Source: a virus | Direction: 5' to 3' (one strand) | DNA length: 41,540 nt | IMG/VR virus record: IMGVR_UViG_3300048838_001126 | Coordinates: 1-41,540 of that record | In this document: positions 4,214 to 37,203 of the stretch, in pieces | How positions within the stretch are numbered: the stretch's first letter is position 1 | Layout of the letters: each line of letters starts with the position of its first letter | Notes under the pieces: generated by a model | Told to the model about the DNA's origin: nothing | Database searches by the model: none | What the model saw: only the letters and a program-made list of their open reading frames with translations | Made by a program: the position numbers and the translations under genes

Positions 4214-4576
4214 ATGCCCCTCCGCGCTCCGCGACCGTGCCGGGCGGCCGGCTGCCCCGAACTGGTGACAGGTCGGGACGGCCTGTGCGCCCGGCACGCG
4301 CGCGAGAGGCGAGAGGCGCACGAGCGCACGCGGACGAACGCCGGGAAGCGCGGCTACGGCGCCGCCTGGCGGAAACTGCGGGCGGCGGTGATTGCTCGGG
4401 ATCCGATTTGCGTTGAGTGCCGGGTGAACCCGAGCACGGACGTTGATCACATTCTCCCGCGCGCAAGTGGCGGGACCGACGCGCTGAGCAATCTTCAGGG
4501 GCTGTGCCACCGTTGCCACTCGCGCAAGACGGCGCAAGCCGATGGGCGCTGGAGCCGGCGGGGGGAGGGGGGGTGA
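4214..4576 (+). CDS. HNH endonuclease, packaging-associated
   Basis: 120 residues. An N-terminal zinc-like cluster (CRAAGC and CARHARER), then CVEC, VDHILPRASGG (the catalytic HNH His), LSNLQGLCHRCHSRKT. Small HNH nucleases beside the terminase are standard in HK97-type cos phages and assist the terminase in cutting DNA. The ribosome-binding site is weak (GAGG). The gene is separated from the small terminase by a reverse-strand gene. Confidence 0.9.
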   Translation: MPLRAPRPCRAAGCPELVTGRDGLCARHARERREAHERTRTNAGKRGYGAAWRKLRAAVIARDPICVECRVNPSTDVDHILPRASGGTDALSNLQGLCHRCHSRKTAQADGRWSRRGEGG

Positions 4577-5893: not shown

Positions 5894-7552
5894 GTGAATG
5901 CCGCTGAGCAATACATCCGGGATGTGCAGTCCCGGAAGGTGGCGGTGTGCCGTTGGGTGCGTCTGGCGGTCAAACGTCACCTGAAGGATCTGAAAGCGGG
6001 GAGGAAACGCGGCCTTTATTTCGATGAGGGGCGGGCAAATTTCGCCCTGGAGTTCTACGGCTTCCTGCGTCATTCGACGGGGGAGTGGGCCGGGCAGAGT
6101 TTCGAGCTGTCCGGCTGGCAGGCATTTGTGCTGTGGGTGGTATTCGGCTGGCGTCGGGCTGACGGCTCGCGGCGGTTCCGGCGGGTCTATCTCGAGGTTG
6201 CCCGCAAAAACGGCAAGAGCACATGGGCGGCCGGTATCGGCCTGCTGCTCCTGCTGGCCGATGGCGAACAGGGAGCGCAGGTATTCAGCGCGGCGACAAA
6301 ACGCGACCAGGCGCGCATCGTCTTTGAAGAGGCAAAGCGGATGGTGGCGAGTTCGCCGGCGCTGCGGCCTTACGTCGACCGGCACAAAGACTCGCTGAGC
6401 GTGCTGGAGACGAATTCGTTTTACCAGCCGCTCAGCTCCGATGCGAAAACCATGGACGGCCTGAACGTCCATGGAGCGCTGGTGGACGAGGTGCACGCGC
6501 ACCGAACCAGCGATTGCATCGATCTGCTGAACACGGCGACGGGTGCCCGGCGCCAGCCGCTGATCGTGGAGATCACGACGGCGGGGAGCGACCGCAAGAC
6601 GATCTGCTGGCAACACCACGAGCACACCGAAAAAGTGCTCAATGGGATCATCGAAGATGACTCGTGGTTCGGCATCATCTTCACCGTCGACGACGGGGAC
6701 GACTGGGAGGACGAACGGGTTTGGGTAAAGGCGAATCCGAACATTGGGATCTCGCCGAAGTGGGACACGATCCGCGAAGAGGCGGCGCGGGCGAAGGAAA
6801 TTCCTTCGGCCATGAACGCATTCCTGCGCCTGCACTTGAACATCTGGACACAGGCGGAGACGCGGTGGCTGCCGCGGAAGAAATGGGACCTCTGCAAGAA
6901 GCTGCCGCGCCTCGATGTCGCGGCGCTGGCGGGGCGGCCCTGTTACGGCGGCCTCGACCTGGCGAGCACCACGGATATTGGCGCCCTGGTGTGGACGTTT
7001 CCGCCGTGGGGCGAGGATCCGTATTACCGGGTGCTCTGTCGGTTTTTCGTACCGAAGGAATCGATACTGCAAAGGTCGCGCCGTGATGGCGTGCCGTATG
7101 ACCGCTGGGAGCGGGATGGTTTCCTGACGGCGACCGCCGGCGACGTGATCGATTACGACGTGATCCGGGCGCAGGTGGCTGCGGACGCGGACCTGTTCGA
7201 CGTTCGCGAGCTGGCATTCGACCCGTGGAATGCGACGCAGATCAGCAATCAGCTGCAGGGTGACGGGCTGCCGATGGTGGCGCACCGACAGGGTTTCGTC
7301 TCCATGAGCCCGGCCATGAAGGCGGCAGAGAAGCTGATCATCGGCGGCGAGTTGGCACACGGGGACAACCCAGTGCTGAACTGGATGGCCGACAACGTGG
7401 TGAGCAAGGGGGACCCGGCGGGGAACATCAAGCCGGATAAGTCCGCCAGTGTGGAAAAAATCGACGGCGTGGTCGCCCTGATCATGGGGGTTGGCCGCGC
7501 CGTTTTGCATGACACGGGCAAATCGGTTTACGAATCGAGAGGGCTGGCCTGA
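5894..7552 (+). CDS. terL: Terminase large subunit
   Basis: 552 residues with a GTG start just after terS. ATPase domain: ARKNGKST (about 103-110) as Walker A and GALVDEVH (194-201) as Walker B. The nuclease domain begins GGLDLASTTD (352-361), with the first metal-binding aspartate. It drives DNA translocation into the prohead and cuts the concatemer. The length fits the HK97-type family. Its stop overlaps the portal start (TGATG). Confidence 0.96.
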   Translation: MNAAEQYIRDVQSRKVAVCRWVRLAVKRHLKDLKAGRKRGLYFDEGRANFALEFYGFLRHSTGEWAGQSFELSGWQAFVLWVVFGWRRADGSRRFRRVYLEVARKNGKSTWAAGIGLLLLLADGEQGAQVFSAATKRDQARIVFEEAKRMVASSPALRPYVDRHKDSLSVLETNSFYQPLSSDAKTMDGLNVHGALVDEVHAHRTSDCIDLLNTATGARRQPLIVEITTAGSDRKTICWQHHEHTEKVLNGIIEDDSWFGIIFTVDDGDDWEDERVWVKANPNIGISPKWDTIREEAARAKEIPSAMNAFLRLHLNIWTQAETRWLPRKKWDLCKKLPRLDVAALAGRPCYGGLDLASTTDIGALVWTFPPWGEDPYYRVLCRFFVPKESILQRSRRDGVPYDRWERDGFLTATAGDVIDYDVIRAQVAADADLFDVRELAFDPWNATQISNQLQGDGLPMVAHRQGFVSMSPAMKAAEKLIIGGELAHGDNPVLNWMADNVVSKGDPAGNIKPDKSASVEKIDGVVALIMGVGRAVLHDTGKSVYESRGLA

Positions 7553-31841: not shown

Positions 31842-32474
31842 TCAGGGCAAAATCATCACAACGCGCCAGATGTGACGGATCTCTGAGGCCTTCAGCTCGA
31901 TGGGATCGTAGGAGGGATTGAGCGGCTGCAGCAGGTAGCGGTCCGGTGAGAGCATGGCCACCTTCTTGATGAAGCTGCGTCCGTTCGTGTCCTGCACGAA
32001 GTGCACCGCCTTGTTCTTGAATCCAACCGTGGGGCTGACAATCACTCGCGACCCATTCGGGTAGCCCGGCTCCATGCTGTCGCCCCGGATCTCGAGCGCA
32101 AAGGCATTCGGATCATTAACGGGGATCGGCACGCTGCCGAGCATTCCGACACCGACCGGTGTGTCGCCGTCCAGGAAAATCGGGGCATCGGTCCCGCCGG
32201 CGGAAACACCGCTGAGCACCGGAATCTCCTTCGCCGCCAAATACTCCGCCCGCTCGTCCGTCAAGTACCAGCCATCAATGATGTCTGAGAGCGGGACGTC
32301 CAGGTATTCGGCGACAGAGAGCGGAAAATCCCAGGGTGGTGAGTACTTGCCGGAAAGCCACCGGCTCACCTGATCCCGGGAAGTGCCGTAGTGCCCGGCA
32401 AGGTCGGTAATGGACCGTCCCCGTGCCTTCAGAAGAGCTTTTACGTGGTCGCCCCGCAGGTTTTTATCGCCCAT
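31842..32474 (-). CDS. LexA/CI-like repressor with S24 self-cleavage domain
   Basis: 210 residues. HTH at about 20-45 (SITDLAGHYGTSRDQVSRWL). Cleavage site Ala92-Gly93 (VSAGGTD). Catalytic Ser 133 (RGDSMEPGYPNGS) and Lys 170 (SFIKKV). The family dimerises on operators, maintains lysogeny and cleaves itself with RecA after DNA damage, so the prophage is probably SOS-inducible. It is transcribed from the promoter at 32506-32534, divergently from the Cro-like gene. Confidence 0.95.
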   Translation of the reverse strand: MGDKNLRGDHVKALLKARGRSITDLAGHYGTSRDQVSRWLSGKYSPPWDFPLSVAEYLDVPLSDIIDGWYLTDERAEYLAAKEIPVLSGVSAGGTDAPIFLDGDTPVGVGMLGSVPIPVNDPNAFALEIRGDSMEPGYPNGSRVIVSPTVGFKNKAVHFVQDTNGRSFIKKVAMLSPDRYLLQPLNPSYDPIELKASEIRHIWRVVMILP

Positions 32475-32534: not shown

Positions 32535-32596
32535 GAGAAAGTGGACATTTGCATCACAATGCGCAGGACACGACATTTTCATCTTGACGTGTAGAA
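32517..32596. promoter_or_regulatory. Paired operator-like repeats in the genetic switch
   Basis: ACGTGTAGAA occurs at 32517-32526 and 32587-32596, 70 bases apart, once overlapping each promoter. Around the first copy TCACG is repeated (32501-32505 and 32515-32519). Around the second, GACG and CGTC form an imperfect dyad (32586-32602). These are the best candidates for repressor and Cro binding sites. Confidence 0.6.
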
Positions 32597-32612
32597 TTCG
32601 TCGCGTTACATT
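32584..32612 (+). promoter_or_regulatory. Rightward early promoter (PR-like)
   Basis: TTGACG (32584-32589), 17 bases, TACATT (32607-32612), 29 bases before the Cro-like ATG. It faces away from the repressor promoter and drives the early operon. Confidence 0.8.
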
Positions 32613-34809: not shown

Positions 34810-35264
34810 ACACCCCGATGCAGATCGAGCCGTCGCGCCATGACGGGCCGCTGGATGTGCTGCCGGGTGAGGAGCGGCTGCTCCCGGACTGGAAACAGAA
34901 GTGGCAGCAGAAATGCGCGGAGATCGAAGGGAAGCGTCCGGTGCGTGGTGACGGGCCGGAGGCGCGGCCGGCGGGCATGGGGTCCGCCGGACCGGACTTG
35001 CGGGGGACTGGATCCCGCGACACCGCACCGGGGGGCGCGGCGCAATCCGCAGTTGACGGATCGCGCCGGCCGGACGGCACCCGGAGCGCGCACTGTCGGC
35101 CTGGCGCCCCCCACGGCGGGCCGATGCCGTCCGCCATTGGCGGACACCCCGGAGACCCGGCAATCCCCACGGAGCCCCCCTGCTCCGCGCCGGGTCTCCA
35201 CTCCCACTCATTTCAACTGACGCAGGAACCGCTCCCTTTCGCGGGGGCACGGAGACCGGCATGA
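34806..35264 (+). CDS. Hypothetical ORF whose 3' half overlaps a structured RNA candidate
   Basis: 152 residues from ATG 34806 (GGGGGAG upstream). The first 55 codons look protein-like (LDVLPGEERLLPDWKQKWQQ, then KCAEIEGK). The rest is Gly/Pro/Arg/Ala-rich with low complexity and coincides with a run of perfect inverted repeats (34981-35199). Its stop overlaps the next ATG (ATGA), which argues that the frame may still be translated to the end. Either a short protein followed by an RNA element, or a dual-use sequence. No family recognised. Confidence 0.5.
   Translation: MNTPMQIEPSRHDGPLDVLPGEERLLPDWKQKWQQKCAEIEGKRPVRGDGPEARPAGMGSAGPDLRGTGSRDTAPGGAAQSAVDGSRRPDGTRSAHCRPGAPHGGPMPSAIGGHPGDPAIPTEPPCSAPGLHSHSFQLTQEPLPFAGARRPA
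34981..35199 (+). ncRNA. Candidate multi-helix structured RNA (three-way junction)
   Basis: Helices read by eye: GGTCC/GGACC (34981-34993); GCGGG/CCCGC (35000-35018); closing helix GGGGGGCGC (35030-35038) with GCGCCCCCC (35104-35112). The closing helix encloses hairpin A: GGCGC (35039-35043)/GCGCC (35063-35067) plus ATCCG (35045-35049)/CGGAT (35057-35061). It also encloses hairpin B: GGCCG.GAC (35068-35075)/GTCGGCC (35095-35101). Then GTCCGCCA/TGGCGGAC (35129-35145). Last, GGAGACCCGGC (35151-35161)/GCCGGGTCTCC (35189-35199) enclosing GGAG/CTCC. The helices nest without conflict. No T tract follows. I know no matching family. Confidence 0.6.
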
Positions 35265-35625
35265 GCGAAATCATCGGCAATGTGACGCTGGTGACCCTGC
35301 GCGGCGGCGCCGCGGTGGAGAGGTGAACAACGAGCTGCGGCGGGTGATCGAGAACATCCTCGACCCGAACACGCCGGCGAAAAAGAAGCGGAGCGTGACG
35401 CTGAAAATCGTGTTCATCCCGGACGAAAGCCGGGAGCAGAACCGCGTGGAGATTTCCTGCACGAGCGTTCTGGCGGCGGCGCGGGAGAGCGCGACCACCG
35501 TCTGGCTGCAGGAGGACGTGCAGGGGAACATCCACGCCAACGAATCGAACTACCGCCAGCCGAACCTCGGCTTCGAGGGCGAGGCGGAAAACGTGGCGCC
35601 GATGCGCCAGGGAGAAAGCGGATGA
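35261..35625 (+). pseudogene. Phage 'replication terminator'-type protein, split by a -1 shift
   Basis: ATG 35261, with GGAGA upstream, opens MSEIIGNVTLVTLRGGAAVER and stops at TGA 35324-35326. The -1 frame continues from GTG 35323: VNNELRRVIENILDPNT, KKKRSVTLKIVFIPDESREQ, to a stop at 35625. From memory, a family in Firmicutes phages has L.GGA..E..N.EL..V..NI.DPNT in one frame, so here one base appears missing or a ribosome must shift. It could instead be two coupled ORFs, the second of 100 residues. The 35323 GTG has no well-spaced ribosome-binding site. It overlaps the next gene by ATGA. The function of the family is not established. Confidence 0.6.
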
Positions 35626-36323
35626 TTGACTCGACCTTCATTGACCGGATCACGGAGCTGGCGCAGGAGCAGGTGCTGGAGATCAATGGCCTGAGCTACT
35701 CGCCGCAGACGCTGCACCTGATCGCGCACCCGGAGCCGAAACCGCTGCAGTTTTCCTCGCTGGGCGGCCTCGTCGACCTGGCGCGGGGAGAGTTCGACGG
35801 CGAGGAGGATGAGCTGCTGGCGCACATCGTGGACCCGTTCACGGTGCAGCTGCTCGGCAAATTGCTGCCGGACACGATGCAGCGCCGGGTCTTCGCCGTC
35901 GCCAAAGCGCCGGCAATCTCGTTCATGTTCGGTTCCTATTTCGAGGCGGAGCCCTTCCTGATCGGCCTGAAAACCCAGTTTGTGCAGACCGAGAAAACGG
36001 CGCTGATCACGCGGCTGGTGGGCAACCTGACGGACGCCAAAGAAGTGAACCAGCTGGACGACGGCTTCAGCCAGAAGGTGGTCGTGAAGGCCGGGATTGA
36101 CACCGCCGACAAAAAGGTGGTGCCGAACCCGATCAAGCTGCAGCCCTTCCGCACCTTCCGCGAGGTGGAGCAGCCGGAGAGCGATTTCCTGCTGCGCCTG
36201 CGCCAGGGCGGCGAGGTGGCGCTGTTCGAGGCGGACGGCGGCGCCTGGCGGCTGGCCGCGATGGCGAGCCTGCTCATCTGGCTGAAGGAGCATCTGCCGC
36301 AAACGGTGACGGTGCTCAGCTGA
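35622..36323 (+). CDS. Conserved phage protein of the 'DGFSQ/EVEQPES' type
   Basis: 233 residues. The stretches QTEKTALITRLVGNLTD, LDDGFSQKVVVKAGI, NPIKLQPFRTFREVEQPESD and ALFEADGGAWRLAA match, from memory, a protein family found next to the 35261-type gene in Firmicutes phages. The function there is unknown; position near recombination and replication genes suggests DNA metabolism. It is complete in length and ATGA-coupled. Confidence 0.75.
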   Translation: MIDSTFIDRITELAQEQVLEINGLSYSPQTLHLIAHPEPKPLQFSSLGGLVDLARGEFDGEEDELLAHIVDPFTVQLLGKLLPDTMQRRVFAVAKAPAISFMFGSYFEAEPFLIGLKTQFVQTEKTALITRLVGNLTDAKEVNQLDDGFSQKVVVKAGIDTADKKVVPNPIKLQPFRTFREVEQPESDFLLRLRQGGEVALFEADGGAWRLAAMASLLIWLKEHLPQTVTVLS

Positions 36324-36338
36324 CATTCCCTACCACAA

Positions 36339-36472
36339 CGGGAGCCGCGTGAGCCGGGCATGTGGCCCTTCGGCAAGGCCGGTGGCGAAAGCCATCCCAG
36401 CATGACCCGGAGCCTCCCGCGCCGCCGTCGGTAGCACGTGGACAGCGAGCAGTGCGACGGAGCAACGGCGCG
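36339..36472 (+). ncRNA. Candidate structured leader RNA
   Basis: In the 175-base gap: CGGGAG (36339-36344)/CTCCCG (36414-36419); CCGGGCATG (36354-36362)/CATG-A-CCCGG (36401-36410); inside, GGCC/GGCC (36364-36380) and GGTGGC-GAAA-GCCATC (36381-36396, GNRA loop). A second domain follows: CGCGCCG (36418-36424)/CGGCGCG (36466-36472) with CCGTCG (36425-36430)/CGACGG (36455-36460). It ends 26 bases before the ATG at 36499, so it may act as a 5' leader. The two domains share two bases, which could allow switching. Confidence 0.6.
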
Positions 36473-36498
36473 GGGGGATTTACCGAGGAGACGCGGAA

Positions 36499-36744
36499 AT
36501 GGCAATTGAACTTGGCATGACGGTGCGGGACCGCATCACGGGTTTTACGGGCGTGGTCACGGGCTACGTTCGCTACATCAGCGGCTGCAACCAGGCGCTG
36601 GTGGTGCCGAAGGTGAAAGAGGACGGCTCCCTGATCGATCCGGCCTGGTACGACGAGCAGCGCCTGGAGGACACGGGCAAGGGGATCATGGAGCTGGACA
36701 ACGGCGCGCATCCCGGCCCGGACAAGCCGGCGCCGAAACGCTGA
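36499..36744 (+). CDS. Small conserved phage protein
   Basis: 81 residues with a GAGGAG site. MAIELGMTVRDRITGFTGVV, TGYVRYISGCNQALVVPKVK, DPAWYDEQRLEDTG is a small beta-barrel-like protein of a kind I recall from many phages (pattern TGF.G...... YL.GC.Q..V.P). Function unknown. It stands alone between two candidate RNA elements, unlike the tightly overlapped genes elsewhere. Confidence 0.75.
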   Translation: MAIELGMTVRDRITGFTGVVTGYVRYISGCNQALVVPKVKEDGSLIDPAWYDEQRLEDTGKGIMELDNGAHPGPDKPAPKR

Positions 36745-36760
36745 TTTTTCCTCACCCCGC

Positions 36761-36799
36761 GGGGGCGGCAGGACGGCGACCCGGTCACCCCCCTTTTTT
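36761..36799 (+). terminator. Probable intrinsic terminator
   Basis: GGGGG (36761-36765) and CCCCC (36788-36792) flank a GC-rich interior, followed by C and T6 (36794-36799). It would end the transcript of the gene at 36499 and insulate the RNA candidate downstream. Confidence 0.6.
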
Positions 36800-36812
36800 C
36801 GATCTTTTGAGT

Positions 36813-36945
36813 TGTGCTCTCGCGAGGGGGACAAAACCTCCTGGTGACGGACTAAATGAGCCGGAAGCCTCCCCGGTTGGCTGATCACCGCCGGGAAAAG
36901 GTTGGAGCCCGGTGATGGACACGGGCCGCGCAGAGCACAGTTTTT
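36813..36945 (+). ncRNA. Candidate small RNA closed by a 12-bp helix, T5 tail
   Basis: TGTGCTCT-CGCG (36813-36824) pairs with CGCG-C-AGAGCACA (36927-36939), 12 bp with one bulge, followed by G and T5 (36941-36945), a terminator-like 3' end. Inside: AGGGGG/CCTCCT (36825-36842, loop ACAAAA); GGTGA (36843-36847)/TCACC (36885-36889) with an inner CCGG/CCGG hairpin whose loop holds GCCTCC; and CCGGG (36891-36895)/CCCGG (36908-36912), or alternatively GCCCG/CGGGC (36907-36926). A terminator at 36761-36799 lies upstream. I see no clear promoter, so it may be processed. Confidence 0.65.
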
Positions 36946-36960
36946 CCACGGGAGGGCGCG

Positions 36961-37203
36961 ATGGACGAGCCACGGGTGATTGTGCTGACGCGGGTGCGCC
37001 GGCGCTACCGGGCGGCGGCGTTTGCCGACCTGGCGGACGCGGCAAAGCTGGTGAATCCAGTGGTGATGGGGGCGGCGCAGCCGACGGTGAAGCGGGCGCT
37101 TCAGAGCCTCGCCTTCACGATCGGGCAGCACGAGGAGCGCGGGGAGTTCGACCCGGCGCCGTCGAAAAATGACTCCGCCGCGGCGGCACCGGAGGGAGAG
37201 TGA
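36961..37203 (+). CDS. Small basic hypothetical protein
   Basis: 80 residues with GGGAGGG before the ATG. EPRVIVLTRVRRRYRAAAFA, then VKRALQSLAFTIGQHEERGE. Mostly helical and basic with an acidic tail. No family recognised. The ribosome-binding site is complementary to the CCTCC loop of the RNA candidate just upstream. Confidence 0.65.
   Translation: MDEPRVIVLTRVRRRYRAAAFADLADAAKLVNPVVMGAAQPTVKRALQSLAFTIGQHEERGEFDPAPSKNDSAAAAPEGE

Follow-up and report, generated by a model that had tools for sequence, protein, structure and literature searches.

A structured non-coding gap among the rightward early genes of a temperate siphophage, possibly a zone of transcription attenuation

Phage early genes are preceded by terminators, with antitermination brought about by an RNA (put) or by a protein (N), as described in an excerpt of PMC9378689. 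The same excerpt gives put as an RNA of ~70 nt with two stem-loops, situated downstream of early promoters. Two further phage RNAs bear on the locus considered here. The c4 RNA of P1/P7 is described in an excerpt of PMC12197685 and listed with RF01695 in one of PMC2864571, and the DicF-type prophage sRNA, again in the excerpt of PMC12197685, comes from an operon transcript. We compare these systems with a 133-base element at 36813–36945 of a virus genome. The window analysed was the whole virus record, 41,540 bases in length.

Genome setting of the non-coding gap

The window carries genes for a large terminase, a portal protein, a capsid protein and a tape measure protein, and on its − strand one for an integrase. 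A 210-aa gene, also on the − strand (31842–32474), stands opposite + strand genes from 32641 onwards; by its position only, we infer that it may be cI-like. A promoter-like pair, TTGACG-17-TACATT, lies at 32584–32612, ahead of the divergent + strand early genes, and the + strand series reaches near the window end, with a DUF5131 protein and a Dam/D12 methyltransferase among its products. Given the structural genes, the − strand integrase gene, the 210-aa gene opposed to the + strand genes and the promoter-like pair, the layout is that usual for a temperate siphophage. No close relatives turned up in the collections searched: the portal protein had relatives at one locus in viral_contigs and distant ones in phages, the terminase at one locus in genome_contigs (37%), and the capsid alignment of 49 loci reached ~50% at best over full length, plus a partial match at 53%.

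Two observations concern the terminase region. Within the large terminase gene (5894–7552), a 133-base coding stretch at 6392–6524 folds into strong hairpins. When synonymous codons of the gene were shuffled 300 times, 0 shuffles folded as low (z −7.0), and the signal is sharply local in sliding windows. At the aligned place in six terminase relatives z was −3.4 or weaker, and the structure is, as far as seen, specific to this phage. Just before the terminase genes, an ORF at 4214–4576 is HNH endonuclease-like by eye; it is absent from the codon-usage gene calls.

The element lies in a non-coding gap of 216 bases between two genes of a single + strand series (Table 1). Two ORFs in the gap scored −25 and −49 in the codon-usage calls, and coding was rejected on these scores. 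By our own gene calls this is the second longest gap in the early + strand region after 34810–35322, in agreement with its annotation as one of the two longest.

The neighbouring early sequence has features of its own. The 513-base gap at 34810–35322 has a poor coding score and a strong fold (z −4.8 at 35073–35205), including a perfect 11-pair stem at 35151–35199 (GGAGACCCGGC/GCCGGGTCTCC). ARAGORN reported a doubtful 99-base tRNA-Val (aac) on its − strand at 34992–35090, and no supported Rfam match was found in this gap. It is followed at 35323–36323 by a pair of genes for 100-aa and 233-aa proteins, relatives of which occur together in 43 of the loci compared. We take the 233-aa protein to resemble DUF2303; a comparison with PF10065 gave no match. 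As a guide, the 35323/35622 gene pair was discarded, the distant DNA matches (phage nd4 and others) covering parts only. A structured gap of 175 bases, 36324–36498, follows just upstream of the 81-aa gene; 173 bases of it fold with z −2.8 (2 of 200 shuffles as low) and contain the arm pair CCTCCCGCGCCG/CGGCGCGGGGGG. The small 81-aa phage protein has a conserved core, ITGFTGVVTG..Y.SGCNQALVVP, with relatives encoded by 101 stretches in viral contigs and no match in Pfam.

Table 1. Positions of the gap, of the element and of adjoining features
Feature	Positions	Strand	Basis
Non-coding gap, from the 81-aa gene (36499–36744) to the 80-aa gene (36961–37203)	36745–36960	+	Codon-usage gene calls
Terminator-like hairpin reaching into the end of the 81-aa gene, T5 at 36745–36749	36728–36749	+	Strict terminator scan
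Second terminator-like hairpin, T6 at 36794–36799	36761–36799	+	Fold; pair probability ~0.8 in whole leader
Closing helix, 5′ strand, TGTGCTCTCGCG	36813–36824	+	Helix search, partition function, 701-base context
Hairpin AGGGGG-ACAAAA-CCTCCT	36825–36842	+	Pair probability 0.93–1.0, robust
Bistable middle: CCTCC either in the loop of the MFE hairpin or paired in an alternative fold	36843–36906	+	Partition function
Hairpin GCCCGGT...ACACGGGC	36907–36926	+	Pair probability 0.80–1.0, robust
Closing helix, 3′ strand with one bulged base, CGCGCAGAGCACA	36927–36939	+	Helix search, partition function
T5 run, presumed termination point	36941–36945	+	Sequence letters, T-run scan
Shine-Dalgarno-like GGGAGGG of the 36961 gene	36950–36956	+	Sequence letters, start-region test

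Three of the 22 runs of at least five T on the + strand fall in the gap (36745, 36794 and 36941), and hairpins precede the first two. The strict terminator scan placed the stem of the first hairpin at 36728–36743, with T5 starting at 36745. Its list does not include the hairpin at 36761–36792, which together with T6 folds at −17.5 kcal/mol with z +0.44, no better than shuffles. A terminator-like element had been annotated at the end of the preceding gene; hairpins with T runs do lie there. When the 22 + strand runs were placed at random, three fell within 201 bases in 490 of 5000 placements; such a cluster was reached by 1 of 200 dinucleotide shuffles, which hold only 8.8 runs on average. A cluster of four T runs exists on the − strand, and the clustering in the gap is suggestive only. 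A switch in which the C-run at 36788 would pair with the first inner hairpin's AGGGGG was considered and rejected, no such pairs exceeding 0.05 in the leader.

Closing helix and inner folds of the element

As annotated, the 133-base segment is closed by a 12-pair helix, here found with one bulged base, and is followed after a single base by TTTTT. The helix is a G+C-rich stem directly before a T run, as in intrinsic terminators. The partition function gave its outer pairs a probability of 0.92–1.0 and the inner four 0.80–0.84; because the pairs keep a probability of 0.69–0.82 within a 701-base context, the 36813–36945 domain is predicted to be modular. To assess chance formation, the 224 bases ahead of the T run at 36941 were dinucleotide-shuffled 1000 times with the run itself kept, and seven of these shuffles equalled the helix. 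Its score of 13.0 was the highest among all 69 runs of at least five T on both strands, the next being 12.0, reached twice.

Overall folding was likewise stronger than in most shuffles. The 133 bases, whose ends were picked by eye on account of the repeat, have an MFE of −60.6 kcal/mol against −47.8 ± 3.9 for shuffles (z −3.3; 1 of 500 as low), and a 151-base version gave z −2.3 (3 of 200 as low). Among 690 + strand windows of 133 bases the segment ranks eighth by z, seven being lower, coding ones included, and 3.5% of these windows have z below −3. The element is real and above chance, but it is not exceptional or rare for this genome. The annotated view of a discrete non-coding element that folds well and has a T run of its own is supported.

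These figures also bear on the alternative that the gap is an untranslated spacer without dedicated function, in GC-rich phage DNA where an inverted repeat happens to precede a T run. The seven equalling shuffles, the 69 T runs on offer with two others at 12.0, and the lower z of seven windows favour such a spacer, as does the fact that conservation was not seen in the relatives searched. Taken together, the length of the non-coding gap, the T runs and a modular fold that persists in a longer sequence argue against it, and we regard a spacer as doubtful.

The search for relatives covered both sequence and structure. At gathering score no Rfam family matched anywhere in the window, and at E up to 5 none matched in 36300–37000; three matches in 36740–36965 (E 3.5–6.8) were taken as chance. 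No DNA relatives of the element were found in phages by blastn or in plasmids, and an exact 18-base piece of it occurred 0 times in viral_contigs. When the three early gaps were compared with 170 loci by blastn and nhmmer, the best E values for this gap were 0.18 and 0.47, which give no support. A covariance model, R1, was built from one sequence given twice, and such models reach near relatives only. On the window it returned only the element itself, the next match having E 0.66, so the element is single copy there. On 75 of the 80 loci of 81-aa protein relatives the best E was 0.08, with several non-standard pairs, and on 49 of another set's 80 loci plus locus L091 it was 0.095. Two sets of whole records each gave matches in 0 of 50: the first comprised the records of 48 capsid loci (of the 49) together with L090 and L173, the second those of 50 of the 80 loci with 81-aa protein relatives.

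Downstream, the 80-aa and 165-aa proteins had no relatives in viral_contigs, the former also none in phages and the latter none in 50 records. In relatives of the 81-aa protein, the gap after its gene has a median of 110 bases and is at least 150 bases in 35 of 77 loci (of 80), lengths that come from a crude rule for finding the next gene, which in the window chooses 36912 and not 36961; the variation in gap length is uninformative. Missing relatives are no evidence against function.

Three hairpins had been annotated inside the helix. This holds for the MFE structure; in the ensemble two are robust and the middle is bistable, its MFE hairpin, whose loop carries CCTCC, making up ~0.25 and the alternative with CCTCC paired ~0.75. 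The other CCTCC, in the 36825–36842 hairpin, is buried, with an opening cost of 8.6 kcal/mol.

Attenuation and small-RNA readings

We propose, with a probability of roughly 0.4, that 36745–36960 is a cis-acting transcription termination/attenuation zone within a temperate siphophage's rightward early operon, the 36813–36945 element being its last and largest part. Polymerase from the presumed early promoter near 32.6 kb would transcribe the upstream genes, reach the two terminator-like hairpins and then enter the 36813–36939 domain, where the closing helix, ending one base before the T5 run, would serve as a long-range terminator stem. The enclosed bases, folded themselves, may bring the arms of the helix together. 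Genes from 36961 on would be expressed by only a fraction of the polymerases, or by those made resistant by a putative antitermination factor. We infer transcription through the gap, termination and any regulation; the reading is supported by the lack of an ORF, the three T runs, a helix that is the best of 69 and robust in the longer context, the fold strength, the absence of a promoter-like site upstream and the position within one + strand gene series.

The distance between the arms is the weak point of the attenuation reading. They enclose 102 bases, and a stem closing so many is unusual, unlike the classical hairpin; intrinsic terminators usually have a loop of 3–8 bases. The closing helix is absent from the strict terminator scan, the 36761 hairpin folds at shuffle level, no homologues were found and thus no conservation was seen, and no antitermination gene was identified. 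If the element is an attenuator, it would mark the place where the early operon of this temperate phage is split in time, a standard point but a putative one in a phage without close relatives in the collections searched.

The initial annotation had suggested a phage sRNA acting on translation. Spelled out, this would be a discrete 133-base RNA, acting in trans or in cis, with its own promoter or cut from the operon transcript, ending at 36945 and binding ribosome-binding sites through CCTCC. The modular fold, the paired ends and the T5 run are consistent with this. Two CCTCC in one 133-base segment, found in 4 of 619 + strand segments and in 17 of 2000 shuffles, count mildly for the idea on a purine-rich strand. 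By analogy, the c4 RNA of P1/P7 (excerpt of PMC12197685) would be its best model and precedent; the c4 family (RF01695) gave no match at gathering score, nor at E up to 5 and 10.

Promoter and pairing analyses spoke against such an RNA. No sigma70-like promoter with at least 9 of 12 was found near 36813, using a consensus that may not be the host's; the best site there had 7 of 12, the commonest best value of 140-base windows (174 of 302). As no promoter-like site lies upstream, the element probably belongs to the operon transcript, the negative being a weak one since the host's promoter rules may differ. CCTCC is a general anti-Shine-Dalgarno sequence, and GGAGG occurs within 20 bases upstream in 10 of 49 predicted + strand genes. 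Net pairing energies, including the opening costs of the element, were computed for 15 early start regions. The predicted value for the 36961 region was −7.2 kcal/mol; six of the 14 others paired more strongly, at −9.1 to −7.8 (39721, 33972, 34588, 32907, 37463 and 33799), and one gave no pairing. Because of these six starts and the frequency of upstream GGAGG, the predicted complementarity to ribosome-binding sites is generic.

The annotated pairing to the 36961 ribosome-binding site is therefore not preferential. The CCTCC loop assigned to purine-rich sites is present in the MFE structure, but it is open in only ~25% of the ensemble and its complementarity is the generic one. A separate candidate, mimicry of the 16S rRNA 3′ end (GGTTGGCTGATCACC), was rejected, its local score of 11 being reached by 89 of 2000 shuffles and also by 9 of 312 windows. 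With no promoter found, one CCTCC buried and the adjacent start region not preferred, the evidence is weak for a stand-alone RNA acting as a block on translation, and we consider a discrete sRNA unlikely. Overall, the earlier interpretation is partly supported.

A more elaborate version would make the element an orphan phage RNA class, in which a 12-pair closing helix holds a bistable middle that exposes or hides an anti-Shine-Dalgarno loop, and which, released from the early operon transcript, would tune several GGAGG-type early and late messages. We think this very unlikely. Were such an RNA released, the known phage sRNAs would gain an anti-Shine-Dalgarno type; as things stand, there is one lineage-specific sequence without comparative support.

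An antitermination RNA acting in cis like put of HK022, which would ride RNA polymerase past later terminators, would account for a structured RNA in an early operon downstream of terminator-like hairpins. The element is about twice the length of put and lies ~4.2 kb from the presumed early promoter, whereas put sits downstream of early promoters (excerpt of PMC9378689); it also ends in a T run. We regard this reading as highly improbable. A small MITE-like mobile element with 12-base terminal inverted repeats would explain the inverted-repeat ends around 133 bases, and is hardly credible for a sequence present once in the window, with no match in plasmids, no target duplication obvious by eye and one indel between the repeats. 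We return to the termination/attenuation zone as the preferred reading, in which this orphan structured gap would plausibly act in cis.

Comparison with known systems

With DicF-type RNAs the element shares the character of a terminator-like RNA inside a prophage operon, the sequences having been compared through Rfam scans only; unlike them, it shows no sign of processing, being known here from sequence alone. Like HK022 put, it would be a cis-acting structured RNA in an early phage operon; its size of ~130 nt, a fold of several branches held together by the closing helix, and its distance from 32.6 kb set it apart by description from that class, to which we do not assign it. Like the c4 antisense RNA of P1/P7, it would be a structured RNA of a phage, situated upstream of a gene, and its loops might pair with ribosome-binding sites; it differs in having no Rfam match and in that its predicted complementarity to the next gene is not preferential.

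A further likeness is to the terminators and attenuators of lambdoid early operons. There the stem has a loop of the usual size, whereas here it encloses structured sequence, and the antitermination partner of the lambdoid attenuators is here only putative. In both, a GC-rich stem followed by a T run stands between genes of a rightward early operon.
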